From the NCBI GenBank assembly GCA_016187945.1, contig JACPIT010000001.1, positions 186,001 to 250,000 on the forward strand: a DNA stretch of 64,000 bases, in the 5' to 3' direction. The translations under genes and the position numbers were made by a program. The notes under the pieces are model-generated. The model was not told the origin of the DNA and did no database searches. It worked only from the letters and a program-made list of their open reading frames with translations. This DNA comes from Opitutia bacterium (GTDB lineage: Bacteria; Verrucomicrobiota; Verrucomicrobiia; Opitutales; Opitutaceae). Below, in pieces: positions 44,197 through 60,522 of this stretch (the first letter of the stretch is position 1; every line of letters begins with the position of its first letter).

Positions 44197-45630
44197 ATGT
44201 CCACCGACGCTCCAGCACCGACCATCCTCGTCATCGATGACGACACCGAGGTGCGCTACTCGCTCAACCGCGTGCTCAGCTCGCAACGCTACCGCGTGCA
44301 GGAAGCCGCGAGCGGCGAGGAGGGCGTCGCCGCGGTGAAGAAACAGGCGCCGGACGTCGTGCTACTCGACAACCGCATGACCGGCATGACCGGACTCGAG
44401 ACGCTCCAGCACATCCGCGCGGCGAGCCCGCGGCAGTTGGTGATTTTCATGACGGCCTACGGCACGGCGCAGACCGCCATCGAGGCGATGAAGTTCGGTG
44501 CCTACGATTACGTCGTAAAGCCGTTCGATCCGCCGAAGCTCATCGCGCTCGTCGAAAGCGCGCTGCGCACGCAAGCCGACAGCAAGTCCGCCAGCGCCTA
44601 CCAGCCGGTCGTCAACTCCGACGAACACAAGGAAGGCATCGTCGGCACATCGCCCGCGATGCAGGAAGTTTTCAAGGCGATCGGCCAATTCGCGGCCTCC
44701 GACGCCTCGGTGATGATCACGGGCGAGAGCGGCACGGGCAAAGAACTCGTCGCGCGCGCCATCCATCGCCACAGCCACCGCTCGGCGAAGCCGTTCGTCG
44801 CGGTCAACTGCGCGGCGATTCCGGAAAACCTGATCGAGAGCGAACTCTTCGGTCACGAGCGCGGCTCGTTCACCGGCGCCACGGCACAGCGTCTCGGCAA
44901 ATTCGAGCAATGTGACGGCGGCACGATCTTCCTCGACGAAATCGGCGACATGACGCCGACGACGCAGACAAAGATTCTCCGCGTTCTTCAGGAAGGCGAG
45001 ATTCAGCGCGTCGGCGGCGTGGAGACGATCAAGGTCAACGTCCGCGTCGTCGCCGCCACAAACAAAAATCTCGAGGTGCTGGTGCAGGAGAAGAAGTTCC
45101 GCGAGGATCTCTACTACCGCCTGAACGTCGTGCGCGTGAAGCTGCCGCCGCTGCGCGGCCGCGTGGAAGATGTGCCGCAGATCGTGGATTTCTTCCTGCA
45201 AGGCCTCGTAAAGGGCAAGAAGGCGAAAGCCCGCAAAGTCTCGCCCGAAGCGCTCGCGCTGCTCTGCCGCTACCGCTGGCCGGGCAACGTGCGCGAACTC
45301 GAGAACGTCGTCTACCGCAGCGCCGTCGCCGCGACGGGCGATGCGATTTTGCCACGCGATTTGCCCGACGAAGTGCGCCAGGCGGGCGAGCGCGAAGACG
45401 CGGCGCTGCCGCCCGACTCGAGCACGACGGCGACTCCGGCCGCGAGTGAGGCTCAAGCCGCGACTGCCGGCACCGTCGATTCCCTCGAGCAACTCGCCGC
45501 GCGCCTGCTCGCCGCCGTCGCCGCCGCGCATCCGGGGCAAGAGCGCGAGACGCTCGCGACGCTCCTCGGAGACAAATTCCCCGCCGCTGACGAAGCCGCG
45601 CCGAAGAAAGCGCGCCCGAAGAAAGCCTGA
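44197..45630 (+). CDS. NtrC-type sigma-54 response regulator lacking a clear Fis helix-turn-helix
   Basis: The protein has 477 residues. A receiver (about 8-125) has the acceptor in [13 protein letters not shown] and lysine in YVVKPFDPP. The AAA+ domain has Walker A GESGTGKE, the sigma-54 loop GSFTGA (in place of GAFTGA), Walker [13 protein letters not shown] and the [15 protein letters not shown] sensor. The last 80 residues are Ala/Pro-rich and end in a KKARPKKA tail; I see no Fis-type HTH. It may act without DNA binding or through a partner. It stands alone and is followed by a REP composite. Confidence 0.9.
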
Positions 45631-45847: not shown

Positions 45848-46843
45848 TTACTTCCGATCGCCGTAGCCCTTCGGCTTCGCTTGGTGCCAGCGCCAGGCCG
45901 TCTCGATGATCGGCTCGATGCTCATGAACTTCGGCGTCCAGTTGAGTTCGGTCTTCGCCTTCGTCGAATCGGCGAAGAGCGCGGGCGGGTCGCCGGCGCG
46001 GCGCGGCGCGTAGGCGACGGGCACCTTGAGGCCACTGACTTTTTCGACGGCGTTGATGACTTCCTTCACGGACGTCGGCGTGCCGGTGCCGAGGTTGTAG
46101 AAAAACTGGGAGCCGGGCGCGGCGAGTTTCTCGAAGACGGCGATGTGCGCGCGGCTGAGATCGTCGACGTGCACGTAATCGCGCAGGCAGGTGCCGTCCG
46201 GCGTCGGATAATCCGTGCCGAAAACCTGGAGGGCAGGGCGGAGGCCTTGCACGGCGCCGATCGCGAGCGGGATGAGATGCGTCTCGGGCTCGTGATCTTC
46301 GCCGATCTTGCCGTCCTCGGAGGCGCCGGCGGCGTTGAAGTAGCGGAACGCGGCAAAACTCAGGCCGTGGGAGCGGGCGAGGGCCTTGAGGAGATTTTCG
46401 ACGTCGAGCTTGGTCTGGCCGTAGGGATTGATCGGCGCCTGTGGCAGATCCTCGGTGATCGGCAAGCGCGCGGGCACGCCGTAGGTCGCGCAAGTGGACG
46501 AGAAGACGAATTTCTTCACGTCGTGCTTGAGCATCGTCTCGAGCAGCGTGAGCGGCGCGGCGAGGTTGTTGCGGTAGTATTTGATCGGATTCGTGACCGA
46601 CTCGCCGACGTAGGCGTAGGCGGCAAAGTGCATCACGACGTCGATGCGGTGCTCGGCGAACACGCGTTCGATGCCGGCCGCGTCGCCGAAATCGACGTCG
46701 TAGAACGGAATCTCGGGCGCGACCGCCGCGCGATGACCGTAGACGAGATTGTCGACGACGACGGGTTGATGACCAGCGGCGACGAGCTGCCGCACGCAGT
46801 GACTTCCGATGTAGCCGGCTCCGCCAGCAACGAGAACTTTCAT
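45848..46843 (-). CDS. galE: UDP-glucose 4-epimerase
   Basis: The protein has 331 residues. The Rossmann motif is VLVAGGAGYIGSHCVRQL, the catalytic Ser/Tyr/Lys are in SSTCATYG and NPYGQTKLDVE (Y-x-x-x-K), and DYVHVDDLSRAH is typical of GalE. It interconverts UDP-glucose and UDP-galactose for polysaccharide precursors. It is divergent from the lipid cluster with 76 bp between the starts. The start at 46843 is chosen because the NAD-binding motif must begin within the first residues. Confidence 0.95.
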   Translation of the reverse strand: MKVLVAGGAGYIGSHCVRQLVAAGHQPVVVDNLVYGHRAAVAPEIPFYDVDFGDAAGIERVFAEHRIDVVMHFAAYAYVGESVTNPIKYYRNNLAAPLTLLETMLKHDVKKFVFSSTCATYGVPARLPITEDLPQAPINPYGQTKLDVENLLKALARSHGLSFAAFRYFNAAGASEDGKIGEDHEPETHLIPLAIGAVQGLRPALQVFGTDYPTPDGTCLRDYVHVDDLSRAHIAVFEKLAAPGSQFFYNLGTGTPTSVKEVINAVEKVSGLKVPVAYAPRRAGDPPALFADSTKAKTELNWTPKFMSIEPIIETAWRWHQAKPKGYGDRK

Positions 46844-46919
46844 AGGGCGAGTCAGGTTTCTATTGGGGTTGCTTTCCGGGTGGCTAGGCAATTCCGTGTC
46901 CATTTTCCTGTATCGTCAC

Positions 46920-48158
46920 ATGAAGCAAACGCGCATCGTCATCACCGGAGTCGGCCTGACCGCACCGAACGGCAACACGCTGGCCGAGTTTCGCCAGAAT
47001 CTCCTCAACGGCGTCTCGGGCATCACGACCGTCGACGTGCGCTACATGGGGCGTTGGCCGGCGGGCATGTGCACGTTCGATCCGCTGAAATACCAAAAGA
47101 AGAAGGACGTCCGCATCGGCACGCGCGCGGGCAGCATCAGCGTCTACTGCGCCCGCGAGGCCCTGGCCGACGCCGGCGTGAACCTCGACACGCGGGACAA
47201 GAGCCGCGTCGGCATCTACGTTGGCATCACCGAGCACGGCAACGTCGAGACCGAGAACGAGGTCTTCAACATTTCGCAGTTCAAATACGACACGAAATTC
47301 TGGACGCACCACCACAACCCGCGGACGGTCGCGAACAACCCGGCCGGCGAAGCGTCGCTCAACCTCGGCGTCACCGGACCGGCTTACACGATCGGCGCCG
47401 CGTGCGCCGCGGGTAACATGGGCCTGATCCACGCCGCGCAGATGCTGCGGCTCGGCGAAGTCGATTTCGCGATCGCCGGCGGCATCAGCGAGAGCCCGCA
47501 GACCTTCGGCATTTTCGCCGGCTTCAAGAGCCAGAACGCCCTCGCGTCGCACGCCGACCCGACGAAGGCCAGCCGTCCGTTCGACAAGGCCCGCAACGGC
47601 ATCGTCATCTCCGAAGGCGGCTGCCTCTACATCATCGAGCGCCTCGAAGACGCGCAAGCGCGCGGCGCCAAGATCTACGGCGAGATCGCCGGCTACTGCG
47701 TCAACTCCGACGCCACCGACTACGTGTTGCCCAATCCCGAGCGTCAGGCCGAGTGCGTGCGCAAGGCCCTCGCGCACGCCGGCATGACCGTCGACGACAT
47801 CGACATCGTGAACACCCACGCCACCTCCACGCCGCAAGGCGACATCCAGGAGTGCCAGGCCATCGCGGCCGTGTTCAAGGACCGCAAGGAGCCGGTCGCG
47901 ATCAACAATACCAAGAGCTTCATCGGCCACGCAATGGGCGCCGCCGGCGCGCTCGAGCTGGCCGGCAACTTGCCGAGCTTCGACGACCTCGTCGTTCACC
48001 CGACGATCAACGTCGATGAACTTGATCCTCAGTGCGATATCCCGGGATTGGTCATCAACCAACCGCGGGCGGTTAAACGGGTTGACGCCATCCTGAATAA
48101 CTCCTTCGGTATGCTCGGAATAAATTCCACTCTGATCATCAAGCGATTTACTGCCTGA
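46920..48158 (+). CDS. Beta-ketoacyl-ACP synthase (FabF-like), cluster-specific
   Basis: The protein has 412 residues, a full KAS II-type condensing enzyme. The catalytic residues are Cys162 (IGAACAAGNMG), His300 (VNTHATSTPQGD), Lys332 and His337 (KSFIGHAMGAAGA). It starts with RIVITGVGLTAPNGNT. It condenses malonyl-ACP with an acyl-ACP. The adjacent ACP and the absence of fabD/fabG suggest a specialised elongation system rather than the main FAS. It is the first gene of the hydrocarbon cluster. Confidence 0.92.
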   Translation: MKQTRIVITGVGLTAPNGNTLAEFRQNLLNGVSGITTVDVRYMGRWPAGMCTFDPLKYQKKKDVRIGTRAGSISVYCAREALADAGVNLDTRDKSRVGIYVGITEHGNVETENEVFNISQFKYDTKFWTHHHNPRTVANNPAGEASLNLGVTGPAYTIGAACAAGNMGLIHAAQMLRLGEVDFAIAGGISESPQTFGIFAGFKSQNALASHADPTKASRPFDKARNGIVISEGGCLYIIERLEDAQARGAKIYGEIAGYCVNSDATDYVLPNPERQAECVRKALAHAGMTVDDIDIVNTHATSTPQGDIQECQAIAAVFKDRKEPVAINNTKSFIGHAMGAAGALELAGNLPSFDDLVVHPTINVDELDPQCDIPGLVINQPRAVKRVDAILNNSFGMLGINSTLIIKRFTA

Positions 48159-48175
48159 CCTCACCTCTGCACACC

Positions 48176-48430
48176 ATGACGAAAGACGCCTGCAAGAAGC
48201 TGGTTATCGACATCATCTCCGACATCGCCCCGGACGAGGATCTCTCGGCCATCAAGCCCGACGTTCGCCTGCGTGACCAGCTCCAGCTCGATTCGATGGA
48301 CTTCCTCGACATCGTCATGGAACTCCGCAAGCGCCACGGCATCGAGGTTCCGGAAGCTGACTACATGCAGCTCGCCTCGCTCGATAGCTGCGCCGACTAC
48401 CTGACGCCGAAGTTCCAGGCCAAAGCCTAA
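48176..48430 (+). CDS. Acyl carrier protein
   Basis: The protein has 84 residues. The phosphopantetheine serine is Ser40 in LQLDSMDFLD. The flanking helices are acidic, and the DSM variant differs from the DSL of housekeeping AcpP, as in dedicated carrier proteins. It follows the ketosynthase by 17 bp. It should carry the growing chain for this cluster. A REP hairpin downstream could act as a terminator. Confidence 0.92.
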   Translation: MTKDACKKLVIDIISDIAPDEDLSAIKPDVRLRDQLQLDSMDFLDIVMELRKRHGIEVPEADYMQLASLDSCADYLTPKFQAKA

Positions 48431-48452
48431 ACTTCCAGCGCTCGGTTCCTTT

Positions 48453-48484
48453 GTAGGGCGGGGTCGCTGACCCCGCCTTTTCGT
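48453..48484 (+). terminator. GTAG REP hairpin acting as likely terminator after ACP gene
   Basis: GTAGGGCGGGGTCGCTGACC then CCCGCC forms a nine-base stem with GGCGGGGTC/GACCCCGCC, followed at once by TTTTCG and TTTTC. It resembles an intrinsic terminator while keeping the GTAG signature. Confidence 0.65.
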
Positions 48485-48489
48485 TTTCA

Positions 48490-48545
48490 CACCAAGATCG
48501 CGAAGACAGCAAAGTTGCTCCGACTCTTTGCGCCCTTTGCTTCCT
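48490..48545. repeat. GCGAAGACAGCAAAG inverted-iteron repeat
   Basis: Left arm GCGAAGACAGCAAAG, right arm CTTTGCGCCCTTTGCTTC. It lies before the first CrtI-like gene and leaves no clear ribosome-binding site. Confidence 0.55.
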
Positions 48546-48578
48546 CCGCGTAAACCCGAGCGATCCTTGGCCATTCCG

Positions 48579-50006
48579 GTGAAAGCCTCTCACTACGACG
48601 CAGTCATCATCGGTGCCGGCATGTCCGGCCTCGCCGCCGGTATCCGCCTCGCGCATTTCGGCAAGAAGGTCTGCATCTTCGAACGCCACAACGCGCCCGG
48701 CGGTCTGAACAGTTTCTACAGCATCGCCGGCCGGAAGTTCGACGTCGGCCTGCACGCGATGACCAACTTCGTGCTGCCGGGCGTCAAAGGCACGCCGCTC
48801 ACGAAGCTCCTGCGCCAGCTCCGCATCGACCGCGAGGAATTCGCGCTCTGCCCGCAAAAGCAGTCGAAGATCGCCTTCGGCCCGCGCGGCGAGACGAAGC
48901 TGAAGTTCACGAATGACTTCGCCGTGCTCGACGCCGAAGTGCGCGCGAAATTCCCGCGCGAAGCGGACGGGTGGGGCGCTCTCGTCCAGCTCGTCCGCAC
49001 CTACGACGACGTCTCGCTCGACGCGAGGCCCCGCTCGGCCCGCGCAGTCGTCGCGCAACACCTCCGCGACCCGCTGCTCACCGACATGCTGTTCTGCCCG
49101 GTGATGTATTACGGCAGCGCGCAGGAGCGCGACATGGAGTTCGGCCAGTTCGTGATCATGTTCAAGGCGCTCTACCTCGAAGGCTTCGCCCGGCCGCTCG
49201 ACGGCGTGCGCGTGATCATTCGCGTGTTGCTGGAAAAATTCCGCCAAGCCGGCGGCGAGCGCCGCATGAAGTGCGGCGTCGCGCGCATTATCGAGTGCGA
49301 CGGTCGCGCTGCCACGCTCGTGCTCGACGACGGCTCGGAAGTCACCGCCGACCACGTGATCTCGTCCGCCGGCTACCCGGAAACGATGCGCCTTTGCGAG
49401 CCCGCGCACACCGCCGAAGCCGACGCCAACACCGGCGCGCTTTCGTATGCCGAGACGATTTCCGTCTTCCGGCAACCGCCCGCGACGTGGGGCTGGGGCG
49501 ACGACACGATCATCTTTTTCAACGACTCGGGAAAATTCGCCTACGAGCGCGCCACCGAGCCGGTCGACTTGCGCAGCGGCGTGATCTGTTTCCCGAACAA
49601 CTTCGCGTATCCCGACGGCGCGGACCTGCCCGAAGGCCTCCTGCGCGTGACCTGTCTTGCCAATTACGAGCGCTGGGCGAGCCTGCCCGAAGAAGCCTAC
49701 CAAGCCGAGAAACGCCGCTGGTTCGACGCGATCCAGCGCAGCGCGCGGCGCTTCCTGCCTTCGGTCGACGATGCCGCGCTCGCCGCGAATCTGCTCACGA
49801 CCGACATGTTCACGCCGCGCACCGTGAAGAAATTTACCGGCCACCTGAACGGCGCGATCTACGGCGCGCCGCGCAAAATCCGCGACGGCCGCACCCACCT
49901 GAGCAACCTCTACCTCTGCGGCACCGACCAAGGTTTTCTAGGCATCGTCGGCGCCATGCTCAGCGGCATCTCGATGGCGAACTACCACGTGCTGCAAGGG
50001 AAGTAG
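48579..50006 (+). CDS. CrtI-like FAD oxidoreductase 1 (phytoene desaturase family)
   Basis: The protein has 475 residues from a GTG at 48579; a TTG at 48567 would add four. The FAD dinucleotide motif is [19 protein letters not shown], followed by [10 protein letters not shown]. The C-terminal motif [20 protein letters not shown] is that of the CrtI/retinol-saturase family. These enzymes desaturate, saturate or isomerise lipid chains. No carotenoid gene is near; the ACP and FAS genes around it point to an acyl chain. The stop codon TAG is the TAG of a GTAG repeat. Confidence 0.85.
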
Positions 50007-50153
50007 CGCCGGTCTCCGACCGGCGTCGGTGAGTTGCGATCCTCGAACGCGCCCAAGTGGTAGAACAGCAGCCGTTCGGTTGAAGAGCGAAACATGCCCA
50101 ATTCGCACCTTCAACCCGCGCGTTCCGCCTCGCCGGTCGCAGACCGGCGCTAC
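50003..50153. repeat. Paired GTAG REP, GCCGGTC class, between the two CrtI-like genes
   Basis: GTAGCGCCGGTCTCCGACCGG faces CGCCGGTCGCAGACCGGCGCTAC-type sequence at the right (50129-50153). The first repeat overlaps the stop codon of CrtI-like 1 (TAG at 50004-50006). Confidence 0.8.
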
Positions 50154-50208
50154 TGCCAAACTTCCCGGTTGCCCTGCCTCGGCGCGCACTCTTACTTGGG
50201 CCGCTTTC

Positions 50209-51648
50209 ATGGCCTACGACTGGCTCAAAGGAATCCACGATCACTACGACGTTATCGTCATCGGCAGCGGCCTCGGCGGCCTCACCGGCGCCAACGTGCT
50301 GGCCAAGTGCGGGCACAAGGTTCTGTTGCTCGAGCACCATTACCAGCTCGGCGGCCTCGCGACGTGGTTCACGCGCAAGGGCGGGCACATCTTCGACATC
50401 TCTTTGCACGGTTTTCCGCACGGCATGATCAAGTCCTGCCGCAAGTATTGGAGCCAGGACATCGCCGACGCCATCGTGCAGCTCAAGGGCGTGCGGTTCA
50501 TCAACCCGCAGTTCCAGATCGACACGACGTTCGACCGCGACGACTTCACGCGCCAGCTCATCGAGACGTTCAAGATCCCCGTCGAAACCGTGGAGAAATT
50601 CTTCACGGACCTCCGCGCGATGAATTTCTACGACAACTCGACCGAGACGACGGGCGAGATGTTCGAACGCTATTTTCCGGGCCGCGACGACGTGAAGCGC
50701 CTGCTCATGGAGCCGATCGCCTACGCCAACGGCTCCACGATGGACGACCCGGCGATCACGTTCGGCATCGTGTTCTCGAATTTCATGAGCAAGGGCGTCT
50801 TCACGTTCCAAGGCGGCACGGACGTCCTCATCAAGCGCATGGCGGAGGAGCTGAAGAAGAACGGCGTCGAGATTCGCAAGCACGTGCTCGTCGAAAAAAT
50901 CCTCACCGAGGAAGTCGACGGCCGCAAACGCGTCACCGGCGTCGTCGCCAACGGCAAGACGATCCGCTGCAGCGCGGTGCTCTCGAATTCCAACATCAAG
51001 AACACCGTCCTGCGCATGGCGGGCGAGGATAACTTCGCGCCGGATTTCGTCGCCGCGACGAAGGCCGTGCGCGTGAACAGCAGCTCCTGCCAGGTCTACC
51101 TCGGCATCAAGAAGGGCGAGACGCTCCCGCACATCGGCGACCTCGTGTTCACGTCGGACGAGCCGAGGTTTTCCAGCGAGAAGCTCGTCGATTTGCACAC
51201 CACGAGCCGGACGTTCTCGCTCTACTATCCTGACACGCGCCCCGGCAGCGATCGCTACACTGTCGTCGTGTCGATCAACGCCCGCTATCAGGATTGGGCC
51301 GGCATGTCCGACGAGGACTACGCGAAGCACAAGGAGCGGCTCATCGAGGAATCGATCACGTCGCTCGAGCGCTTCATCCCCGACGTGCGTGGCAAGATCG
51401 AGTGGAAGGAAGCCGCCACCCCGCGCACCGTCGAATACTACACGAAACACTGGCACGGCACGTCGTTCGGCACGAAGTTCGAGGGCCTGAAAATCTCGAT
51501 GGATCTGCCGACGCAACTGCCCGGCCTCTACCACGCCGGCTCGGTCGGCATCATCATGTCGGGCTGGCTCGGCACGATTAACTACGGCGTGATCGTCGCC
51601 AACCAGATCGACAAGGCCCTCGCCGCGTCGAAGCGCACCGCCGCTTGA
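50209..51648 (+). CDS. CrtI-like FAD oxidoreductase 2
   Basis: The protein has 479 residues from the ATG at 50209. FAD-binding [19 protein letters not shown] is followed by [15 protein letters not shown]. The C-terminal [22 protein letters not shown] replaces the GTDQGF-type motif. It is a clear but divergent paralogue of the preceding gene. Family chemistry is FAD-dependent (de)saturation or isomerisation of polyenes or acyl chains. The two are separated only by a REP pair. Specific reaction unknown. Confidence 0.85.
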
Positions 51649-51654
51649 GAACCG

Positions 51655-51788
51655 CCCGCGAATCCACGCGAATGTCCGCGAATCAAACCCATCGCTGTAG
51701 GGCCGGCGCTCGTCGCCGGGCCGCGATCTCGTTGACAGCCGAAACGCCGGTTGCGCGATTCGCGTTCATTCGCGCCCATTCGCGGGCC
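51655..51788. repeat. CGCGAATG inverted-iteron repeat with internal GTAG hairpin
   Basis: The left arm has GCGAATCCACGCGAATG and GTCCGCGAATC; the right arm has the inverse GATTCGCGTTCATTCGCG. A GTAGGGCCGGCGCTCGTCGC hairpin lies at 51697-51720 inside. It fills the spacer before the dehydratase gene. Confidence 0.65.
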
Positions 51789-51811
51789 ACCGCCTTTTCC
51801 ACTCTCTCCCT

Positions 51812-52261
51812 GTGAACGAAGTCGAGAAACTCATCCCGCACCGCCCGCCGTTCCTGTTCGTCGACGAGATCGTCTCGCGCACGGACACCACGCTCGTCTC
51901 GCGCCGCACCTGGCGCGCCGAGGAGGATTTCTACAAGGGCCACTATCCGGGCGCGCCGATCACGCCGGGCGTGCTGCTGTGCGAGGCCGTTTTTCAAACC
52001 GGCGCGCTGCTCCTCGCGGGCAAATTCAACACCGGCGCCGGCAAACCCAACGGCGTGCCGCTCCTCGCCAAGGTGGAAAACGTCCGCTTCCGCACGCCCG
52101 TCTATCCCGGCGACACGATCACCATCGAAGTGAAGATCAACGAAGTCGCCGGCGGTTTTTATCTGATGTCCGGCGCGATGAAGTCCGGCGACAAGCGCGT
52201 GCTGAACGTCGATTTCTCCGTCGCGTGGAAAACGCCCGAGGGCCAGCAGACGACCGCATGA
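51812..52261 (+). CDS. FabZ-like 3-hydroxyacyl-ACP dehydratase
   Basis: The protein has 149 residues from a GTG start. Hot-dog fold with LIPHRPPFLFVDEI, then His44 (YKGHYPGAPITPG) and Glu58 (LCEAVFQTGALLL), the catalytic pair of FabZ. It dehydrates 3-hydroxyacyl-ACP to the enoyl form. A ketoreductase for this cycle is not in the cluster and must come from elsewhere. It lies between the CrtI-like and FabI-like genes. Confidence 0.9.
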   Translation: MNEVEKLIPHRPPFLFVDEIVSRTDTTLVSRRTWRAEEDFYKGHYPGAPITPGVLLCEAVFQTGALLLAGKFNTGAGKPNGVPLLAKVENVRFRTPVYPGDTITIEVKINEVAGGFYLMSGAMKSGDKRVLNVDFSVAWKTPEGQQTTA

Positions 52262-52284
52262 ATCGGCGCGGGCATTTCTCCGTC

Positions 52285-52356
52285 GTGGGCCAGCGCGCTT
52301 GCGCGCGCCTTATCCACGCCCGCAACGTTCCGGCCCGCGCAAGCGCGCTGACCCAC
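52285..52356. repeat. Inverted repeat, GCGCGCTTGCGCG class
   Basis: GTGGGCCAGCGCGCTTGCGC faces GCGCAAGCGCGCTGACCCAC, without a GTAG tetranucleotide. It lies immediately before the FabI-like gene. Confidence 0.7.
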
Positions 52357-52364
52357 ATTGCGTC

Positions 52365-53219
52365 ATGACCGATTTCCTCCAAGTCGCGGGCAAAACGTTT
52401 CTCGTTCAAGGCGTCGCCAACAAGAAGAGCGTCGCCTGGCTGATCGCAAAATCGCTCGAGGAGCAGGGCGCTCGCGTCGTCTACGCCGTGCGTTCCGAGG
52501 GGCGCAAGAAATCGCTCGAGGCGTTACTCGCCGACCGTCCGGTGTTCGTGTGCGACGCCGAACAGGAAGGCGCGTGCGACAAGCTCGCCGCCGAGGTCGC
52601 GGCCGCCGGTTTCGCGCCGCTGCACGGCCTCGTGCACTCGATCGCGTTCGCGAACTACAGCGAAGGTTTCAAAACGTTCGCCGAAACGAAGCGCAGCGAT
52701 TTTCTGCAGGCGACCGCGATCTCGGCGTTTTCGCTCGTGGAACTCACGCGCGCATTCAAGCCGCACCTCGCGCGCGATGCGTCCGTCGTGACGATCGGCA
52801 TCTCGTCGTTGCTCGTGACGCCCGACAACTACGGCTACATGGGCCCGATCAAGGCCGCGCTGGAATCGTGCGCGCGTTTCCTCGCGAAATCGCTCAGCGC
52901 CGACACCGCGATCCGCGTGAACGTGCTCGGCAGCGGCCCGCTCAAGACGAGCGCGTCGGCCGGCATCCCCGGCTATCTCGAGAGTTACCTCTACGCGGAG
53001 AAAATGACGTTCCGCAAACGCGCGCTCGATACGCAAGAGGTCGCGAACGTCGCCCTGTTTCTCCTCAGCCCGCGCAGCAGCGGCGTGAACGGCACGACAC
53101 TCGTCGTCGACGCGGGACTCGGTTCAAACTATTTCGACAAGGACATCATTCGCCTCGCGATGCGGCCGGAGGCGCCGACGGCGCAAACGCCAAATTCCAA
53201 AACCCAGACGCCAAAGTGA
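52365..53219 (+). CDS. FabI-like enoyl-ACP reductase with altered active site
   Basis: The protein has 284 residues. The NAD-binding start (KTFLVQGVANKKSVAWLIAKSL) and the SDR catalytic Tyr156-x6-Lys163 (NYGYMGPIKAALE) match FabI numbering. The tyrosine at 146 of E. coli FabI, conserved in the family, is Ile146 here (VVTIGISS). The C-terminal ALDTQEVANVALFLLSPRSSGVNG is typical. The last 14 residues (TAQTPNSKTQTPK) are encoded by an intergenic repeat. It should reduce the enoyl bond of the chain, or have a changed specificity. Confidence 0.85.
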   Translation: MTDFLQVAGKTFLVQGVANKKSVAWLIAKSLEEQGARVVYAVRSEGRKKSLEALLADRPVFVCDAEQEGACDKLAAEVAAAGFAPLHGLVHSIAFANYSEGFKTFAETKRSDFLQATAISAFSLVELTRAFKPHLARDASVVTIGISSLLVTPDNYGYMGPIKAALESCARFLAKSLSADTAIRVNVLGSGPLKTSASAGIPGYLESYLYAEKMTFRKRALDTQEVANVALFLLSPRSSGVNGTTLVVDAGLGSNYFDKDIIRLAMRPEAPTAQTPNSKTQTPK

Positions 53220-53277
53220 AAGACTCAGAGACTCAGCAGATTTTGGCGTTTGGAATTTGGCGTTTGGGATTTCGAAA
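53188..53277. repeat. CCAAATTCC inverted-iteron repeat overlapping 3' end of FabI-like gene
   Basis: CGCCAAATTCCAAAACCC faces GGCGTTTGGAATTTGGCG and GTTTGGGATTTCG. It covers the last 32 bases of the FabI-like frame and ends at the OleA start codon. Confidence 0.7.
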
Positions 53278-54315
53278 ATGAAGTTTTCGCGCGCCTGCAT
53301 TGAATCCATCGCCGCCGTCGAGCCGGACGAAGTCTGGTCGTCAGCCGACATCGAAGCGCGCCTCAAGCCGATGTATGAGCGCCTGCGCCTGCCAGAAGGG
53401 CGTCTCGAGCTCATGTCCGGCATCCGCGAGCGCCGCATGTGGCCGGCGGGCACGCGTCCTTCCGACGCCAGCGCTGCGGCCGGACGCAAGCTGCTTGGCC
53501 TTTCGAAAATTCCCGCTGCGAAACTGCAGGTGCTGATGCACAGCGCCGTGTGTCGCGACATGCTCGAACCGGCGACGGCGACGTTCGTGCATCACAAAAT
53601 GGGACTGAGCGGCGCCATGCAGGTGTTCGACGTCTCGAACGCGTGCCTCGGTTTCCTCAATGGCCTCGTGCTGCTCGGTTCGATGATCGATGCCGGCCAG
53701 ATCCGCGCCGGCATCGTCGTCTCGGGCGAGAACGGTCGTCCGCTCGTCGAGCGCACGATCCAGCATTTGCTCGCGGCCAATCTCGATCGCAACGCCATCA
53801 AGCCGTTCTTCGCGAATCTCACCATCGGCTCGGCCGCCGTCGCGGCGGTGGTGTGTCACGAAGACGAGTTGCCCGCCGGTGCGCCGCGGCACCGTCTGGT
53901 CGCGGGTGCCGCGCTCGCCGACACGAGCCACAGCGATCTTTGCCAAGGCGACAGCGCGGGCGACGGACTCGCGATGGAAACCGATTCGGAGCAATTGCTC
54001 ATCGCCGGCGTGGAGGTCGCGCGTCGCACCTGGGCGGATTTCAAACGCGAGAGCGGCTGGAACGAGACGACGCCCGACCGTTTCATCTGCCACCAGGTCG
54101 GCAGCGCGCACCGCCGGAAGCTCTACGAAACGCTCGGTCTCGATCTCGCGAAGGATTTTTCGTCGTTCGAGACGCTCGGCAACACCGGTTCCGCCGCGCT
54201 GCCGACGACGCTCGCACGCGCGGCCGAGCAGGGCGCAGTGTGCGCCGGTCAAAAGGTCGCGCTGCTCGGCATCGGCAGCGGCATCAACAGTCTGATGCTT
54301 GCCCTCGAATGGTAA
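53278..54315 (+). CDS. oleA: OleA: acyl-CoA head-to-head condensing thiolase
   Basis: The protein has 345 residues. The thiolase fold has catalytic Cys123 (VFDVSNACLGFLNG), His272 (FICHQVGSAHRRKL) and Asn302 (LGNTGSAALPTTLA). Glu97 lies 26 residues before the cysteine, the same spacing as the OleA-specific Glu117 to Cys143 of Xanthomonas OleA. OleA condenses two acyl-CoA to a beta-ketoacid. The flanking OleB supports the assignment. Here the acyl donor may be ACP-bound because the FAS-type genes lie upstream. Confidence 0.93.
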   Translation: MKFSRACIESIAAVEPDEVWSSADIEARLKPMYERLRLPEGRLELMSGIRERRMWPAGTRPSDASAAAGRKLLGLSKIPAAKLQVLMHSAVCRDMLEPATATFVHHKMGLSGAMQVFDVSNACLGFLNGLVLLGSMIDAGQIRAGIVVSGENGRPLVERTIQHLLAANLDRNAIKPFFANLTIGSAAVAAVVCHEDELPAGAPRHRLVAGAALADTSHSDLCQGDSAGDGLAMETDSEQLLIAGVEVARRTWADFKRESGWNETTPDRFICHQVGSAHRRKLYETLGLDLAKDFSSFETLGNTGSAALPTTLARAAEQGAVCAGQKVALLGIGSGINSLMLALEW

Positions 54316-54339
54316 TGCACAAGACAGGCCGATTCCATT

Positions 54340-54537
54340 GTAGGGGCGCAGTCTTGCTGCGCCCGTCATTGCCTCGGGCGAAACTAGCCCAGATATTTCA
54401 CGGCGTAGCGGAAACCGTGAGGTTTTCGCACCTCAGCAGCGGCGAAATTCTCACGAATTCCGCTACCACGCTGCGTCGCGCGCTGCGCTCTACGGGTGAA
54501 ATAGCCGGGCTAGGGCGCAGCAAGTTTGCGCCCCTAC
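54340..54537. repeat. Paired GTAG REP (GGGCGCAG class) enclosing the 108-bp element
   Basis: GTAGGGGCGCAGTCTTGCTG faces CAGCAAGTTTGCGCCCCTAC. Between them CTAGCCC and GGGCTAG arms surround the 108-bp element at 54395-54502. This is a nested arrangement. Confidence 0.8.
54395..54502 (+). repeat. 108-bp dispersed element, copy 2
   Basis: It starts ATTTCACGGCGTAGCGGAAA and ends CTACGGGTGAAAT, giving inverted termini. It matches the reverse complement of 9027-9134 with few differences and 12988-13068 partly. Confidence 0.8.
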
Positions 54538-54558
54538 AGGTAGAACAGGAGCACGTTT

Positions 54559-55443
54559 ATGCCTGATTCGCTCCCGGACTGGCTGCGGAAATTGTATCCG
54601 TTCGAGCCGCAGCGCTTCGCGACGGCCGCAGGCGAGATGAGCTATCTCGACGAAGGTCCGCGCAGCGACGAGGCGGTCGTGATGGTGCACGGCAATCCGA
54701 CGTGGTCGTTTTTCTACCGCGACGTCGTGCTCGCTTTGCGCGGTCAGATGCGGTGCATCGTGCCGGACCACCTTGGTTGCGGCCTCAGCGACAAGCCCCA
54801 GCAGTGGGACTACACGCTGCCAAATCACATCGCGAATCTGCGCGCGCTGCTCGATTCGCTTCGGCTGAGGAAAATCCATCTCGTCGTGCACGATTGGGGC
54901 GGTCCGATCGGGCTCGGCGCGCTGCTGCCACAGCCGGAGAAGCTCGGACGCGTCGTTATCCTCAACACCGCTGCGTTCGCCGACACCGTCGTGCCGCTGC
55001 GCATCCGGCTGTGCCGCGCACCGCTGATCGGCGAGGTGATCGTGCGCGGCTTCAACGGCTTCGCGTGGCCAGCGACGTGGATGGCCGTTTCGAAGCCGCT
55101 GCCAGCCGATGTGAAGCGGGGTTTTCTGTTTCCTTACGATTCGTGGGCGAACCGTATCGCGACGCACCGTTTCGTCGTGGACATCCCGAGCGGGCAGGGC
55201 AGCGCGTCCGACCGCGCGCTCGCCGAGATCGAGCGCCGTTTGGCAACGCTGCGCGAACGCGACGTGACGCTACTCTGGGGCGCCGACGATTTCTGCTTCA
55301 ACCGGCATTATTTTCATCGTTGGAGCGAACTGTTGCCGGACGCGCCGAAGAGTCTGCTAGCCGGCGTCGGTCACTACCTGATCGAGGACGGCGGGGCGGA
55401 AGTGGTCGGGCGGGTCAGGCGCGCCGTTTTGGGAGACATCTGA
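54559..55443 (+). CDS. oleB: OleB: beta-lactone decarboxylase (haloalkane dehalogenase-like fold)
   Basis: The protein has 294 residues. Oxyanion motif MVHGNPTWSFFYRD, nucleophile Asp112 in VVHDWGGPIG, and late His272 (GVGHYLIEDGG). OleB converts the beta-lactone made by OleC to a cis-olefin. The position right after oleA supports the call; a true haloalkane dehalogenase cannot be excluded by fold alone. The dif-like site and prophage follow at once. oleC and oleD are not found in the window. Confidence 0.88.
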   Translation: MPDSLPDWLRKLYPFEPQRFATAAGEMSYLDEGPRSDEAVVMVHGNPTWSFFYRDVVLALRGQMRCIVPDHLGCGLSDKPQQWDYTLPNHIANLRALLDSLRLRKIHLVVHDWGGPIGLGALLPQPEKLGRVVILNTAAFADTVVPLRIRLCRAPLIGEVIVRGFNGFAWPATWMAVSKPLPADVKRGFLFPYDSWANRIATHRFVVDIPSGQGSASDRALAEIERRLATLRERDVTLLWGADDFCFNRHYFHRWSELLPDAPKSLLAGVGHYLIEDGGAEVVGRVRRAVLGDI

Positions 55444-55479: not shown

Positions 55480-55507
55480 TAGAGACATAATGCTTATTGT
55501 GCGATGA
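55480..55507 (-). other. dif-like XerCD site, left prophage junction (attL)
   Basis: Read on the plus strand it contains ACATAAT, a TGCTT-type centre and ATTGTGCG, matching the reverse complement of E. coli dif at 15 of 28 positions including both conserved cores. It contains the 13-bp repeat TGCTTATTGTGCG (55491-55503) that recurs at 62477-62489. If the right-hand XerC arm is restored from the right junction, the match to dif rises to 17 of 28. Confidence 0.7.
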
Positions 55508-55525
55508 CGGCCAAATAAACCGGCT

Positions 55526-56041
55526 ATGAGGAACGGCTTACAAGTCGTGTCTTCCTCGAAAGTTCCTCAAACCATCGCAGATAGCGCCACTCTTGCGCAC
55601 CCCGCAGACGGAGCAAGCGCCCCGTCATTGGCACAGAAGTTGAACCGCTCGCGCCGTCCGCGCAGGCGGGCGCTCTCCGTCAAACTGCCTCACCTGTTCA
55701 TCCACGAGTGGGAGGAAAAGTTTGAGGCGTTGATTGCGGAGCGCTCGCCGCACCCGCACGCCTGCTATCCGAATTTTGCGTGTTGGCTCGGGGCACAGAT
55801 CACCGAAGGCCAGCGGATGGATTCGGGTTCGTTCGAGGCCCTTTTGCATGCGGTCGCGCGAATCTCCTACAACGACGGCTTCCGCGACGGCCTCCGCCAC
55901 CGTGAGCAGCCTTCGGAAAAATTGTCGCCTAGCGACTGTCCGCCCGCCCGCGTTGAGGAACCGGGCGAAAGCGCGGACCGCCAAACGACCGGTCTCGGCG
56001 TTACGACCGCCGGGGCCGGTCAACCGGAGGCGCGGACGTGA
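55526..56041 (+). CDS. Phage hypothetical protein, first gene
   Basis: The protein has 171 residues from an ATG at 55526, only 19 bp after the dif-like site. The N-terminal third is basic (NRSRRPRRRALSV), and a helical part follows (HEWEEKFEALIAE). The tail is acidic and disordered-looking. No family recognised. Its stop overlaps the GTG start of rep, so it is translated with it. Position suggests an early replication or regulatory factor. Confidence 0.7.
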   Translation: MRNGLQVVSSSKVPQTIADSATLAHPADGASAPSLAQKLNRSRRPRRRALSVKLPHLFIHEWEEKFEALIAERSPHPHACYPNFACWLGAQITEGQRMDSGSFEALLHAVARISYNDGFRDGLRHREQPSEKLSPSDCPPARVEEPGESADRQTTGLGVTTAGAGQPEART

Positions 56042-57348
56042 CCGTGCAAAATCCGCTGCAAATCGCCAAGGAACCCGCCGCAGCGGTTGCGGCGCAGCCG
56101 CCCCGCGCGGCGGGTTCCCTTGGTAATAATGCGGATTTTGTCCTCACCCCGTCAGCCGGGTGTTGCGCATCAGCCACTTGCGAAAGCGAAAGCCCTGCAG
56201 TCGATTCGCCCGTTTTCGACATTCACTCGGTTTTGCCCCCGCCGGGGACGGTCAAAGCGTGGTATCAGCGGAGCGTCGCACGCGATCTGCTGAAGTCCCA
56301 CGGCATCACGCGGCGCATGCGTTGGTGCGGCTCGCGGATTGCTCGTGGGCATGATGGCGTGAACGTCTACGCGCGGCCTGACCGTGCTTATGGTCGCCTC
56401 GGCGGGGTCTGCGTTTGTGGGCAGTCGATCTGCTGTCCGGTGTGCGCTCCGCGCATCGCGGCGCGTCGTGCCGAAGAGGTCGCGCTGGCGTATCAGCGGG
56501 CCATGGATGCCGGCTGGGAGCCTCGGCTGGAGACGTTCACGAAGCCGCACGTTCTCGACCGTTCCCCGCGCGCGCTGCTGCGCGAGTTCGAGAAGTTCTC
56601 CGACCTTTGGCGCTCGTTTCAGAAGAACGCCGACCGGCGCGAGCGCGGCACCGAGGGCCATCACCTCGCGCGCGAAATCACGTGGGGTGATCGCAATGGC
56701 TGGCACTACCACCACCACCGGCTGCGGTATGATCGACCGGGCAGCTACGACGCTGACCGCTCGCGCGCGCAGTGGCTTGCGACGTTGGAAGGCTTCGGCC
56801 TGCGCACGGAGGGCGCGGATGAACACGCCTACGACTGTGAGCCCGTGACGAGCGAAGCGGGCGCGCGTTACTGCGCGAAGCTGTCAACGTCGGTCGAAGC
56901 TCAGGCGCGCGCGATCTCGTCTGAGGTCGCGTCGTCGGCGACGAAGGGCCGCAACATCAACTCTCTCCTTGCGGACTACATTCGCGGCGATCTGCAAGCG
57001 GGCGCGGTCTGGGTGAACGGTGCGGCGTGCGTTACTGCGACGAAGATTTCATCCGTCCGTTGGTCGCGTGGCCTGCGCTACAAGCTCGGTCTCGACGTGG
57101 AAAAAACTGACGCGGTGCTCGCGCAGGAAGAAGTCACCGCAACGGACGAATTTCTCGGCTCGCTCAATCCGACGCAGTGGCGCGGCGTGCTCGCGCTCAA
57201 AGCGGAGTTCGCGCTGCTGTGCGCGGCGAATCGTGGCGGCGATGCCGTGAACGAATTTCTTGCCGGGCTCTCGCTCGGCCAGCTCAACGACGAAGACCCG
57301 CATCGTCTTTGGACTGCCCAACGCAAAGCGGGTCATCCCGGAGATTAA
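56038..57348 (+). CDS. Phage rolling-circle replication initiator (Rep)
   Basis: The protein has 436 residues from a GTG overlapping the previous stop. A zinc-ribbon-like CVCGQSICCPVCAPRIAARR is at 125-144. The HUH motif is GWHYHHH (221-227) and the candidate nucleophile Tyr278 is in ARYCAKLS. This order matches the Rep_1-type initiators of rolling-circle plasmids and several inoviruses. It should nick the double-stranded origin to start replication. The origin itself was not located; it may lie in the leader or within rep. Confidence 0.88.
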   Translation: MTVQNPLQIAKEPAAAVAAQPPRAAGSLGNNADFVLTPSAGCCASATCESESPAVDSPVFDIHSVLPPPGTVKAWYQRSVARDLLKSHGITRRMRWCGSRIARGHDGVNVYARPDRAYGRLGGVCVCGQSICCPVCAPRIAARRAEEVALAYQRAMDAGWEPRLETFTKPHVLDRSPRALLREFEKFSDLWRSFQKNADRRERGTEGHHLAREITWGDRNGWHYHHHRLRYDRPGSYDADRSRAQWLATLEGFGLRTEGADEHAYDCEPVTSEAGARYCAKLSTSVEAQARAISSEVASSATKGRNINSLLADYIRGDLQAGAVWVNGAACVTATKISSVRWSRGLRYKLGLDVEKTDAVLAQEEVTATDEFLGSLNPTQWRGVLALKAEFALLCAANRGGDAVNEFLAGLSLGQLNDEDPHRLWTAQRKAGHPGD

Positions 57349-57352
57349 TCCA

Positions 57353-57634
57353 ATGCTAGTATTCAAAGCGTCGCAGGTCATCGCCGCCACGGCGGTCTCG
57401 AATAAACCCTACTCGTTCGAAGACGAGCGCGGCAAAACCAAGTCCGGCACGTCGATTTATTCGGACGTTACCGTTCTCTCCGCAAACGGCTCCGTCGCGG
57501 TGATTCGCATCAAGGGCAAGACGGAGGAGGAAGTGAAAACGCGAGTCGCGAAGTTGGCCGTCGGCAAGTCGGCCGAAATCGAGATTCGGCCCGACGAGAG
57601 CACGCGCGGTGTGTGCATCCTTAACGCGATGTGA
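57353..57634 (+). CDS. Small phage protein, probable ssDNA-binding protein (gV-like)
   Basis: The protein has 93 residues; start ATG at 57353 preceded by GGAG. It is predicted to be mostly beta strands (SIYSDVTVLSANGSVAVIRIKG) with charged loops. Size and position right after rep match the ssDNA-binding proteins (pV) of filamentous phages, but sequence similarity is not evident to me. It would coat progeny ssDNA before coat exchange. Confidence 0.6.
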   Translation: MLVFKASQVIAATAVSNKPYSFEDERGKTKSGTSIYSDVTVLSANGSVAVIRIKGKTEEEVKTRVAKLAVGKSAEIEIRPDESTRGVCILNAM

Positions 57635-57642
57635 GGTGCGCC

Positions 57643-57891
57643 ATGACCTCGGATAAATACGGAGAGTTGGCGCAGGACTACTGCGAGCATCACTCGTTGC
57701 CTCACGAGTCCGGCTACGTGCTGTTCTGGCGCGGTGAGCCGTTTGCTTGGTCGTCGGCGTTGCGTCCGGAGATGTTTGTGCCGGGCGTGGTCGCGTGCTC
57801 CGCCGACGGTTTCCTCCTGCTGCTCGCGACGGGCGGCAATGCCGATGACGGTGCGCGCGAGTTCCGCTCTTACGACTCGGAGGCGTCATGA
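57643..57891 (+). CDS. Small phage protein of unknown function
   Basis: The protein has 82 residues, start ATG at 57643 with GAGG upstream. It has acidic ends and a hydrophobic middle (GYVLFWRGEPFAW, FLLLLATGG). No motif or homologue recognised. It overlaps the next gene by ATGA. Confidence 0.6.
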   Translation: MTSDKYGELAQDYCEHHSLPHESGYVLFWRGEPFAWSSALRPEMFVPGVVACSADGFLLLLATGGNADDGAREFRSYDSEAS

Positions 57892-58094
57892 CACGCGAAG
57901 AATTCCACAAGCTCGCGAGGATGGATGCTGAGGAACTGCAGTTCGTTCTCGGCGTCGTCGAAGCGAATCGCGCCCGCCTCCTCGGCGAAACCGTGAAGCT
58001 AGCCGATCAACTCGCGGAGTGCGTGGAGGACATCGACCTCCTGCGCGAGCACATCCGCACGCGTCGCCGCGAACGGCAACTCGTCATGCTCTGA
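57888..58094 (+). CDS. Small helical phage protein
   Basis: The protein has 68 residues, all helical with many charged residues (EELQFVLGVVEANRARLLGE). The C-terminal part is basic (RTRRRERQ). It has GGAGG upstream of the ATG. Unknown function; size is that of accessory DNA-binding or regulatory proteins of inoviruses. Confidence 0.6.
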   Translation: MTREEFHKLARMDAEELQFVLGVVEANRARLLGETVKLADQLAECVEDIDLLREHIRTRRRERQLVML

Positions 58095-58095
58095 C

Positions 58096-58224
58096 ATGAG
58101 CATTCTCGACCTCCATCTCGCAGTTGTGGCGCAGTTCCTCGGCCTCGGAGTCGCGGTCTATGCGCTGTTCTACGGCGCGGGATGGCTGGTCCGCGTCTTC
58201 CGCGTGTTCGCGGAGGACGATTGA
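58096..58224 (+). CDS. 42-residue phage membrane protein
   Basis: The small frame ATG at 58096 to TGA at 58224 gives a peptide with one membrane helix (VVAQFLGLGVAVYALFYGAGWLV) and an acidic end. It lies just before the coat gene, the place of pVII/pIX-like minor tip proteins in Ff phages. The assignment to that role is an inference from size, helix and position. Confidence 0.55.
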   Translation: MSILDLHLAVVAQFLGLGVAVYALFYGAGWLVRVFRVFAEDD

Positions 58225-58308
58225 TTTTCGCCCACTCGGGCAAACGTCACGGTGCAGTGCCTCGGGCCCCGCGATGAATTTCAGAGGCAAATCGAAAGGG
58301 AAAAGGAA

Positions 58309-58482
58309 ATGAACCTCGTCGTTGCTACGATCGATCTCACCGCCGTCACGGACGGCGTTGGGGAACTGAAAACCGCGCTGCTCGCGGCGGCCGCTCTGGC
58401 CATCGCGGCGGGCCTCGCCGTGTTCGCCGTCAAGTTCGGCGGCAAGTGGGTTGTGAAGGTGTGGAAATCCTTCGCGAGCTGA
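58309..58482 (+). CDS. Major coat protein (pVIII-like)
   Basis: The protein has 57 residues. A short acidic N-terminus (DLTAVTDGVGEL) precedes a 19-residue membrane helix (23-41, ALLAAAALAIAAGLAVFAV) and a basic C-terminal helix with Lys42, Lys46, Lys50 and Lys53 on one face. This is the classic pattern of filamentous phage coat proteins. There is no cleavable leader, as in Pf3. A strong purine-rich ribosome-binding site (GAAAGGGAAAAGG) precedes the ATG. A terminator follows, as expected for a highly expressed coat gene. Confidence 0.88.
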   Translation: MNLVVATIDLTAVTDGVGELKTALLAAAALAIAAGLAVFAVKFGGKWVVKVWKSFAS

Positions 58483-58490
58483 CGCCCTCT

Positions 58491-58534
58491 CCCCTCGCCT
58501 CGCGGTCCGCTGCGGGGCGAGGGGAAACTTTTCT
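58491..58534 (+). terminator. Terminator after the coat gene
   Basis: CCCCTCGCC (58491-58499) pairs with GGCGAGGGG (58516-58524) and is followed by AAACTTTTCT. Filamentous phages have a central terminator after gene VIII, in the same place. The T-tract is weak, so some read-through to the pIII-like gene is likely. Confidence 0.6.
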
Positions 58535-58536
58535 CC

Positions 58537-59037
58537 GTGAAAATTCGCACTCTCGTCGTCGTTGTCCTGGCCGTCGTCGCTTTCGCGGTCGCGTCGCGTG
58601 CCGCGGTCTTCGAGTTCAAAAACGCGGGTCCGTCAGGTGGCCCGGTGATTTACGTCTACGGCGATGTGACGCCCGACGGTGCGCCGGTGTGGCCGTTTTT
58701 TCGCGCAGTGCTCCCGGGCGAGGTCGTTCGTGACGTTTGGGACGGCACCGGCTCGTATAATTTTTCGGTTCTGGGGATCGATGCGAACGGCGACACGAGC
58801 GGGGTGCAGACCGGTGTTGTTTCTGGCCCCTTCGACGAGACGAAGCGCATCAGCGCTTGGTGGACTTTCGGTGCAACGGTTACCAGTGCGTCCTTCGGTG
58901 AGACGAACGAGAGCCAGTTGAGTTCTTCGGAGCGTGCGGACCCGATTGAATGGTCTGCGGTGTTCGCGGCCGCTGTGGTCGCGTGGTTCGTGATGTGGTG
59001 CGCGCGCGCGGGAGCACGTGATGGCGCGTCGGAGTGA
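58537..59037 (+). CDS. Phage secreted/membrane minor structural protein
   Basis: The protein has 166 residues from a GTG. Signal peptide (MKIRTLVVVVLAVVAFAVASRA), a central beta-rich domain (DGTGSYNFSVLGIDANGD) and a C-terminal helix (WSAVFAAAVVAWFVMWCA). A protein with leader and C-terminal anchor before the pIII-like gene could be a second tip protein. No family recognised. Confidence 0.65.
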   Translation: MKIRTLVVVVLAVVAFAVASRAAVFEFKNAGPSGGPVIYVYGDVTPDGAPVWPFFRAVLPGEVVRDVWDGTGSYNFSVLGIDANGDTSGVQTGVVSGPFDETKRISAWWTFGATVTSASFGETNESQLSSSERADPIEWSAVFAAAVVAWFVMWCARAGARDGASE

Positions 59038-59041
59038 TCCT

Positions 59042-60211: not shown

Positions 60212-60522
60212 TCGCCGCTCTGAATTGGATAATGACGTTTCTGAGGAACACGAATCCCGTCGTTACGTCGGTCTTCGTCGGCGCGTCCGCCGTCGGGACC
60301 GTCTGGCAGCTTTTCAGCTCGCTCTGGCCGACGCTGTTCGCGCGCATCGACGCGCTGACCGTCAACGCGACGGGTGGCGCGCTGTCGTTCCAGCCGTGCG
60401 GGCTGATCAACGCGATTTTCCCCCTCGCGGAACTGCTCAACTTCCTCGTCGCCTACGGTGCGCTGCGTCTCGCGGCCGCGGGCATCCGCATCGTGAAGAG
60501 CTTCGTTCCCACGATCGCGTGA
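60208..60522 (+). CDS. Phage pVI-like minor coat protein
   Basis: The protein has 104 residues and three hydrophobic helices (VVTSVFVGASAVGTVW, AIFPLAELLNFLVAYGALRL). It sits between the pIII-like and Zot genes, the usual place of gene VI (DUF2523-type). The start overlaps pIII as ATGA, the stop is overlapped by the GTG of zot. Confidence 0.75.
   Translation: MIAALNWIMTFLRNTNPVVTSVFVGASAVGTVWQLFSSLWPTLFARIDALTVNATGGALSFQPCGLINAIFPLAELLNFLVAYGALRLAAAGIRIVKSFVPTIA

Follow-up and report, generated by a model that had tools for sequence, protein, structure and literature searches.

In the genome of an Opitutia bacterium (contig JACPIT010000001.1, positions 186,001 to 250,000; we call this whole stretch of 64,000 nucleotides the window), genes for a ketosynthase (KS), an acyl carrier protein (ACP), two CrtI-like flavoproteins (CrtIa and CrtIb), FabZ and FabI precede genes for OleA and OleB. 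We propose, by analogy with known systems, that the first six probably form a module of discrete enzymes that provides OleA with polyunsaturated acyl chains, filling the role that the Pfa synthase has for other OleA proteins. The proposal is built on the content and order of the genes, the catalytic residues of their products, their co-inheritance with OleA, and the mutual exclusion between the CrtI pair and PfaD.

Genes of the cluster

The eight open reading frames (ORFs) between 46920 and 55443 were confirmed at their coordinates; all lie on the + strand and none has an internal stop. Pfam agrees with the assignments, and the eight-gene cluster of the original prediction, which was made from the sequence alone, is real. 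KS (46920–48158; ketoacyl-synt N- and C-terminal domains) is a FabF-like ketosynthase with a Cys-His-His active site, and is followed by a dedicated ACP (48176–48430; PP-binding) with the phosphopantetheine site DSM. CrtIa (about 48579–50006, a start deduced from relatives, the ORF itself opening at 48528) and CrtIb (50209–51648) are flavoproteins of the CrtI/CrtISO superfamily (Amino_oxidase/NAD_binding_8), each with its own C-terminal motif. FabZ (51812–52261; FabA-like domain) resembles 3-hydroxyacyl-ACP dehydratases, and FabI (52365–53219) matches the Pfam enoyl-ACP reductase domain. OleA (53278–54315; ACP_syn_III_C) is a head-to-head acyl-condensing thiolase by Pfam, NCBIfam and solved chains, the nearest being 3row, 3s21 and 5vxf (E 2e-59 or lower). 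OleB (54559–55443) is an alpha/beta hydrolase (abhydrolase), which we take, by analogy, to be the beta-lactone decarboxylase.

Among the best 25 NCBIfam models for each protein, only OleA had a match over its cut-off (NF006720, 437.6 versus 285 bits). The best scores of KS (322 versus 494 bits, fabF), ACP (37 versus 83), FabZ (102 versus 113), FabI (170 versus 370) and OleB (134 versus 466, under the haloalkane dehalogenase cut-offs) fell short, as did those of the two flavoproteins (see below). These seven proteins are thus divergent members of their superfamilies and, by their sequences, do not look like housekeeping copies.

The residues that we take to be catalytic were conserved in at least 97% of the rows in every alignment of relatives (ORF numbering): C162, H300, K332 and H337 of KS (51 rows), S40 of ACP (42), H44 and E58 of FabZ (66), Y157 and K164 of FabI (56), E100, C126, H275 and N305 of OleA (101; the Cys-His-Asn set and the Glu of the partner tunnel), and D112 and H272 of OleB (72). 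KS also keeps, in at least 97% of its 51 rows, a module-specific gating loop, SFGMLGIN, at the position where FabF has a gate of the GFGGTN type.

The original prediction had described the ole genes as the first two or so enzymes of olefin synthesis. This needs correcting, since oleC (632.9 bits versus a cut-off of 478) lies on another contig of the same genome (G000:C9, 564.4–567.5 kb) beside an oleD-like gene, named from its position and its similarity to OleD-position genes elsewhere and not from a family scan. The window's genome thus holds a full OleABCD set.

Conservation of gene order

The order KS-ACP-CrtIa-CrtIb-FabZ-FabI recurs in relatives and in Planctomycetota, and its identity in such distant genomes puts the grouping beyond chance. 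Adjacency was counted in 99 loci with any module gene, each of at least 7 kb, some genomes contributing two. Where both genes were present, KS adjoined ACP in 20 of 20 loci, ACP adjoined CrtIa likewise in 20 of 20, and FabZ adjoined FabI in 37 of 37; the corresponding fractions were 26/28 for CrtIb-FabZ, 13/18 for CrtIa-CrtIb and 32/41 for FabI-OleA. Five of the 99 loci, from Planctomycetota, held all ten genes including oleABCD, arranged in L281 and L282 as OleA-OleB-OleC-OleD-KS-ACP-CrtIa-CrtIb-FabZ-FabI; in L272, also from this phylum, the two halves stand back to back.

Within the window's order, 104 of 132 genomes have OleA at E 1e-60 or better (128 match at 1e-3, the weak matches being FabH-like), and 40 OleA neighbourhoods of up to 20 kb contained FabI in 32 cases, CrtIb in 19 and KS, ACP and CrtIa together in six. 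Scattered module genes are common in the phylum's other families; in G301 and G316, for example, KS-ACP-CrtIa is divergent from OleA and CrtIb lies elsewhere. CrtIa, CrtIb and OleA are likewise apart in the planctomycete G505, with neither KS nor ACP within the 20 kb around CrtIa. Genomes for locus inspection were hand-picked for unlinked genes, for compact loci or for OleA without the CrtI pair, and module-bearing genomes include single-contig assemblies (e.g. G035, G114 and G126).

Co-inheritance with OleA

The thresholds for co-occurrence were our own choice (OleA 1e-40 and 1e-25, CrtIb 1e-40 and 1e-30, CrtIa 1e-30). Among 288 genomes of the window's phylum, 77 had OleA (1e-40), 78 CrtIa (1e-30), 76 CrtIb (1e-40) and 70 all three, which co-occur also where they are unlinked. 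Fisher's test gave about 1e-56, a value that ignores relatedness and means only that the pattern is non-random. OleA was present without CrtIb in G172, G242, G276, G326 and G367, and without CrtIa in G172, G242, G311 and G323. In a draw of 246 Planctomycetota genomes around Brocadia pituitae (OleA cut-off 1e-25), OleA occurred in 86, and CrtIa and a strong CrtIb match in an identical set of 50, all with OleA; seven of the 57 CrtIb matches, at about 1e-31 and anammox-like, were set apart from these 50.

The coupling of the elongation module and CrtI pair to OleA is thus well shown, and gene order and co-occurrence bear out the suggestion of the original prediction that a dedicated elongation set, CrtI-like enzymes and OleA belong to one system. 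That prediction had also proposed looking for either part without the other. Upstream genes without OleA are uncommon in the 288 genomes, with CrtIa in five (G065, G261, G292, G373 and G388), CrtIb in four (G065, G292, G339 and G388) and both in three (G065, G292 and G388). OleA without the CrtI pair does exist, but PfaD then accompanies it in 36 of 38 genomes (see below).

In the 1.7-Mb genome G065, CrtIb lies 3.4 kb from oleC-oleD (L132, G065:C4:299000-318900), and between CrtIb and oleC we read by eye a MarR-like gene and others that seem unrelated.

Mutual exclusion with PfaD

PfaD was sought with the model TIGR02814 in 80 chosen genomes, namely 79 of the 163 OleA genomes plus G065. From Planctomycetota they took in every one of the 36 genomes with OleA alone and 24 of the 50 with the CrtI pair; the remaining 20 belonged to the window's phylum, 17 of them having all three genes, two having OleA but neither CrtI gene, and G065 having the pair but no OleA. 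PfaD scored over the cut-off in 36 of the 38 OleA genomes without the pair versus none of the 42 with it, the window's genome included; the positives were 34 of the 36 OleA-only planctomycetes together with G172 and G242 from the window's phylum, so that PfaD accompanies OleA in both phyla examined. By this model G000 has no PfaD, the protein by which we would have recognized a Pfa-type polyunsaturated fatty acid synthase, and the pair-bearing G583 had a match (E 2.5e-4) far under the cut-off. Fisher's test gave 1e-20, uncorrected for relatedness. As a control, TIGR02814 matched in three of 14 named genomes, once over the cut-off. Of the 36 positives, 21 had OleA and PfaD on the same contig, at distances of 3.6–37 kb, 17 of them 13–15 kb.

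The OleA proteins divide in the same way. Identity to the window's OleA was 37–47% in the 36 OleA-only planctomycetes versus 46–55% in the 50 with the pair. In a tree of 62 of 100 OleA rows, from which every second ‘CrtI’ row had been omitted, 20 of the 21 Pfa rows and the exceptional G541 fell on one long, fully supported branch; the other side held all 39 rows labelled ‘CrtI’, five of them by default, together with G406 and G404 on long branches. The OleA of G404 is highly divergent. The partition thus tracks an ancient division of OleA, with both kinds present in both phyla. It argues well for a separate supplier in each lineage of OleA, but does not amount to many independent replacements.

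CrtIa and CrtIb as families

By their sequences, CrtIa and CrtIb each represent a distinct family. Against TIGR02730 (carotenoid isomerase) they scored 81.5 and 102 bits versus a cut-off of 586.9, and against crtI_fam 63 and 81.5 bits versus 238, so neither qualifies as a member of these curated carotenoid families; among solved chains even the nearest, 4rep, is distant (E 1e-9). In a tree, each formed a clade with support of 100/100, apart from the anammox, carotenoid and other superfamily rows, several outgroup branches being very long and their joining order unsure. The C-terminus carries a GTDQGFLGI(V/I)GAMLSG-like motif in CrtIa and a different 12-residue motif in CrtIb; in the anammox rows and in four of the five from the outgroup, this place is taken by a PG-rich motif (PGPG, PGSG, PGIG or PGGG), the fifth, from Streptomyces, having been left out of this comparison. 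CrtIb is 55–64% identical to the window's protein in six Planctomycetota rows and 53–88% identical across 17 relatives.

The curated scores, the tree and the co-occurrence with OleA led us to reject a carotenoid reading, in which ordinary carotenoid genes lie by chance beside fatty-acid genes. Membership of the superfamily is all that speaks for it; both proteins fall far under the displayed carotenoid cut-offs, the pair of crtI genes in a carotenoid cluster falls outside their clades, and they track OleA through two phyla, which makes this explanation scarcely credible.

On a Streptomyces plasmid, a CrtI-superfamily oxidoreductase lies directly 3′ of a ketosynthase-domain gene (L312, 5989–7665), near a large adenylation-domain gene and with no annotated carotenoid gene beside it.

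Comparison with the anammox clusters

The original prediction had also drawn a parallel with the ladderane clusters of anammox bacteria. Our anammox sample consisted of ten records found with a 16S probe (five titled as Brocadia or Kuenenia and five as Planctomycetota or Planctomycetia), and we read ten regions around the best CrtIb relatives in nine genomes. Nine of the ten regions held FabZ-KS-KS-CrtI, one of them with broken KS and CrtI frames (L164), and L165 lacked it. At eight loci, the catalytic positions are occupied by V (I in one), N, K and E in the KS adjoining CrtI and by C, H, K and H in the other KS. In the table by Rattray, Kuste3606 shows V, N, K and E (PMC2649909), and by this match of sequences the FabZ-KS-KS-CrtI locus is very probably the published candidate locus.

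The two systems are alike in that FabZ, KS and a CrtI-superfamily flavoprotein stand side by side, as in the Kuste3603-3608 type of cluster. They differ in that the anammox CrtI proteins are only 25–31% identical over their length to CrtIb, lie with the outgroups (long-branched, as noted) across a 98/94 branch from the CrtIa and CrtIb clades, and end in a different motif; in that the window's single KS has C, H, K and H and no degenerate second KS accompanies it; and in that the seven genomes carrying anammox-like CrtI in the draw of Planctomycetota all lacked OleA in a search at 1e-25. The parallel is thus unsupported in the form originally put, and we reject orthology to the ladderane candidates. 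A ladderane-like or cyclized lipid pathway related to the anammox one has in its favor the same kinds of genes in a row and a KS matching Kuste3606 in Rattray's table; set against this are the differences above and radical S-adenosylmethionine proteins, absent from the eight in the window's cluster and, according to Rattray, present as several in anammox clusters (PMC2649909). We regard such a pathway as very improbable. According to Javidpour's report, the two anammox CrtI homologs make no lycopene, and anammox genes expressed in E. coli yielded no ladderanes (PMC4790861).

Relation to known hydrocarbon systems

The closest functional parallels are bacteria that make polyunsaturated hydrocarbons. 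In Geobacter bemidjiensis, a producer of C31:9, the pfa and ole genes stand in tandem (PMC4882568, PMC3098273), and Desulfotalea psychrophila makes C31:8 and C31:9 without pfa and has phytoene-dehydrogenase-like genes inside clusters for type II fatty acid synthesis (FASII; PMC2649909). In pfa-ole clusters such as that of G. bemidjiensis, a dedicated acyl-building machine is genetically coupled to OleABCD, as here. Unlike the window's module, which has single-function FASII enzymes, two CrtI-like proteins and no PfaD, these clusters encode a multidomain Pfa megasynthase and are PfaD-positive, and the OleA lineages are distinct with few exceptions. By its published gene descriptions, D. psychrophila (DP1860, DP2405 and DP2406) resembles the module in being Pfa-free, with CrtI-like genes in FASII clusters and a polyunsaturated hydrocarbon. 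The OleABCD systems of Xanthomonas and Micrococcales share the active-site residues of OleA and the OleABCD set. They use ordinary acyl-CoA and are not known to come with a dedicated FASII/CrtI module.

Olefins of Verrucomicrobia were reported by Sukovich in 2010, as cited in PMC7158056. By title or the start of the abstract, our literature search, which covered subscription journals poorly, found no description of a CrtI-FASII-OleA module.

Proposed function and alternatives

Our preferred reading is that KS, ACP, CrtIa, CrtIb, FabZ and FabI constitute a type II synthase that would use its own ACP to assemble a special acyl chain and would pass this to OleA. OleA would then condense two such chains head to head, and OleB, with OleC and OleD encoded elsewhere, would take the condensation product on to a long-chain olefin. 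What makes the chain special is most likely its polyunsaturation, the module having for this OleA the role that the Pfa synthase has for the other lineage, so that a hydrocarbon with many double bonds, of the C31:9 type, is to be expected. Elongation would fall to KS, FabZ and FabI, drawing on a housekeeping ketoreductase. The likeliest enzymes to set the double bonds are CrtIa and CrtIb, which would act either as a pair of flavin-dependent enoyl isomerases or as desaturases that need no oxygen. A Pfa synthase needs two isomerizations, which the two flavoproteins may mirror, although this is a guess. We infer the flow of substrate, the polyunsaturation and the roles of CrtIa and CrtIb; given the exclusion of PfaD and the C31:9 of Geobacter and Desulfotalea, polyunsaturated chains made by the module for OleA are the simplest reading.

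Several observations weigh against it. The cluster has no ketoreductase, and OleA in other bacteria uses ordinary acyl-CoA. The OleA tree shows in essence one deep split, with a Pfa lineage on one side and the rest on the other, so that 36 of 38 versus 0 of 42 does not amount to 80 independent observations, and the five ‘CrtI’ rows labelled by default (L025, L032, L038, L041 and L075) had not been tested for CrtI. G406 is PfaD-positive with an OleA outside the Pfa branch, and the planctomycetes G404 and G541 (L291 and L292) carry OleA but lack both PfaD and the pair. Both CrtI genes occur without OleA in G065 (99% complete), G388 (91%) and G292 (86%), and CrtIa alone in G261 (93%, one contig) and G373 (94%); G065 even has CrtIa, CrtIb, oleC and oleD and no OleA at 1e-40. 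FabZ and FabI are not always near OleA, FabI being missing from eight of the 40 neighbourhoods. In the literature that we read we found no lipid of any organism with the CrtI module.

The module might instead supply OleA with a special chain that is not of the methylene-interrupted polyunsaturated kind, such as one that is conjugated, oddly mono-unsaturated or of unusual length. The coupling to OleA reveals a supplier rather than what it makes; among curated families both flavoproteins score best against carotenoid isomerase, which works on conjugated chains; and the KS gating loop departs, in at least 97% of 51 rows, from the FabF form. We nevertheless consider such a chain unlikely, as the module stands where PfaD stands in the sister lineage of OleA, and C31:9 is made by a bacterium that lacks pfa but has FASII/phytoene-dehydrogenase-like clusters. 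It is more doubtful still, and in our view improbable, that CrtIa and CrtIb act after OleA, saturating or desaturating the long olefin or ketone, with KS, ACP, FabZ and FabI merely feeding OleA. CrtI relatives do act on long hydrocarbons, co-occurrence leaves the order of steps unset, and CrtIb is close to oleC-oleD in L132; against this, ACP and KS stand beside CrtIa in 20 of the 21 wide loci holding CrtIa (L276 being the exception), and CrtIb adjoins FabZ in nearly all loci with both.

Polyunsaturated chain synthesis by the module, if true, would be a new route to such chains. More tentatively, and with slightly less than even confidence, we suggest that the module could be a second, independently evolved bacterial polyunsaturated-fatty-acyl synthase, composed of FASII enzymes and two new CrtI-superfamily families, using neither a Pfa megasynthase nor oxygen, and devoted to making polyunsaturated hydrocarbons for the membranes of many Verrucomicrobiota and Planctomycetota. 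In 2009, pfa-free synthesis of C31:9 was raised as a question, and a route through FASII and phytoene-dehydrogenase-like enzymes was proposed for Desulfotalea and anammox bacteria (PMC2649909). With a compact and strongly conserved module of six genes, and sister genomes that use Pfa as a natural control, the question of pfa-free polyunsaturated hydrocarbons becomes experimentally addressable, and two new flavoenzyme families are on offer as candidate acyl isomerases or desaturases.

Surroundings of the cluster

Upstream of KS lie galE on the − strand (45848–46903, over its NCBIfam cut-off) and, farther 5′, a sigma-54 NtrC-type response regulator (44197–45630). The regulator and the reversed galE also precede KS in L043, L046, L048, L052 and L082, and in L131 a sigma-54 regulator stands immediately 5′ of KS; it is possible that this neighbor is a conserved regulator of the module. 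A sigma-54 promoter before KS, which this neighbor had suggested, was sought and rejected: 46780–46960 contains zero matches, and the whole window has 18 where 22 are expected by chance.

Directly 3′ of oleB, a 20-mer that in our estimation resembles dif (55484–55503, + strand), a candidate XerC/D site, forms the downstream boundary of the cluster and is not part of the pathway. No second such 20-mer that could serve as attR was found genome-wide with up to three mismatches. The same 20-mer lies 3′ of oleB in the congener G278 and about 2.9 kb beyond oleB in G288 (L315 2080; L316 4874), and the window's DNA past oleB matches neither genome. The ole cluster appears to lie next to a hot spot for integration at the chromosome terminus.

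Beside the dif-like site is an inovirus-like prophage (55520–62200). Neither oleC nor oleD was recognized among the ORFs read past it, and the other ORFs scanned in the prophage region had no Pfam or PHROG matches. One prophage ORF (60225–61268) has matches to M13 protein I and Zot-like proteins, and another, of 436 amino acids, matches phrog_11698, a family of unknown function that perhaps acts in replication.

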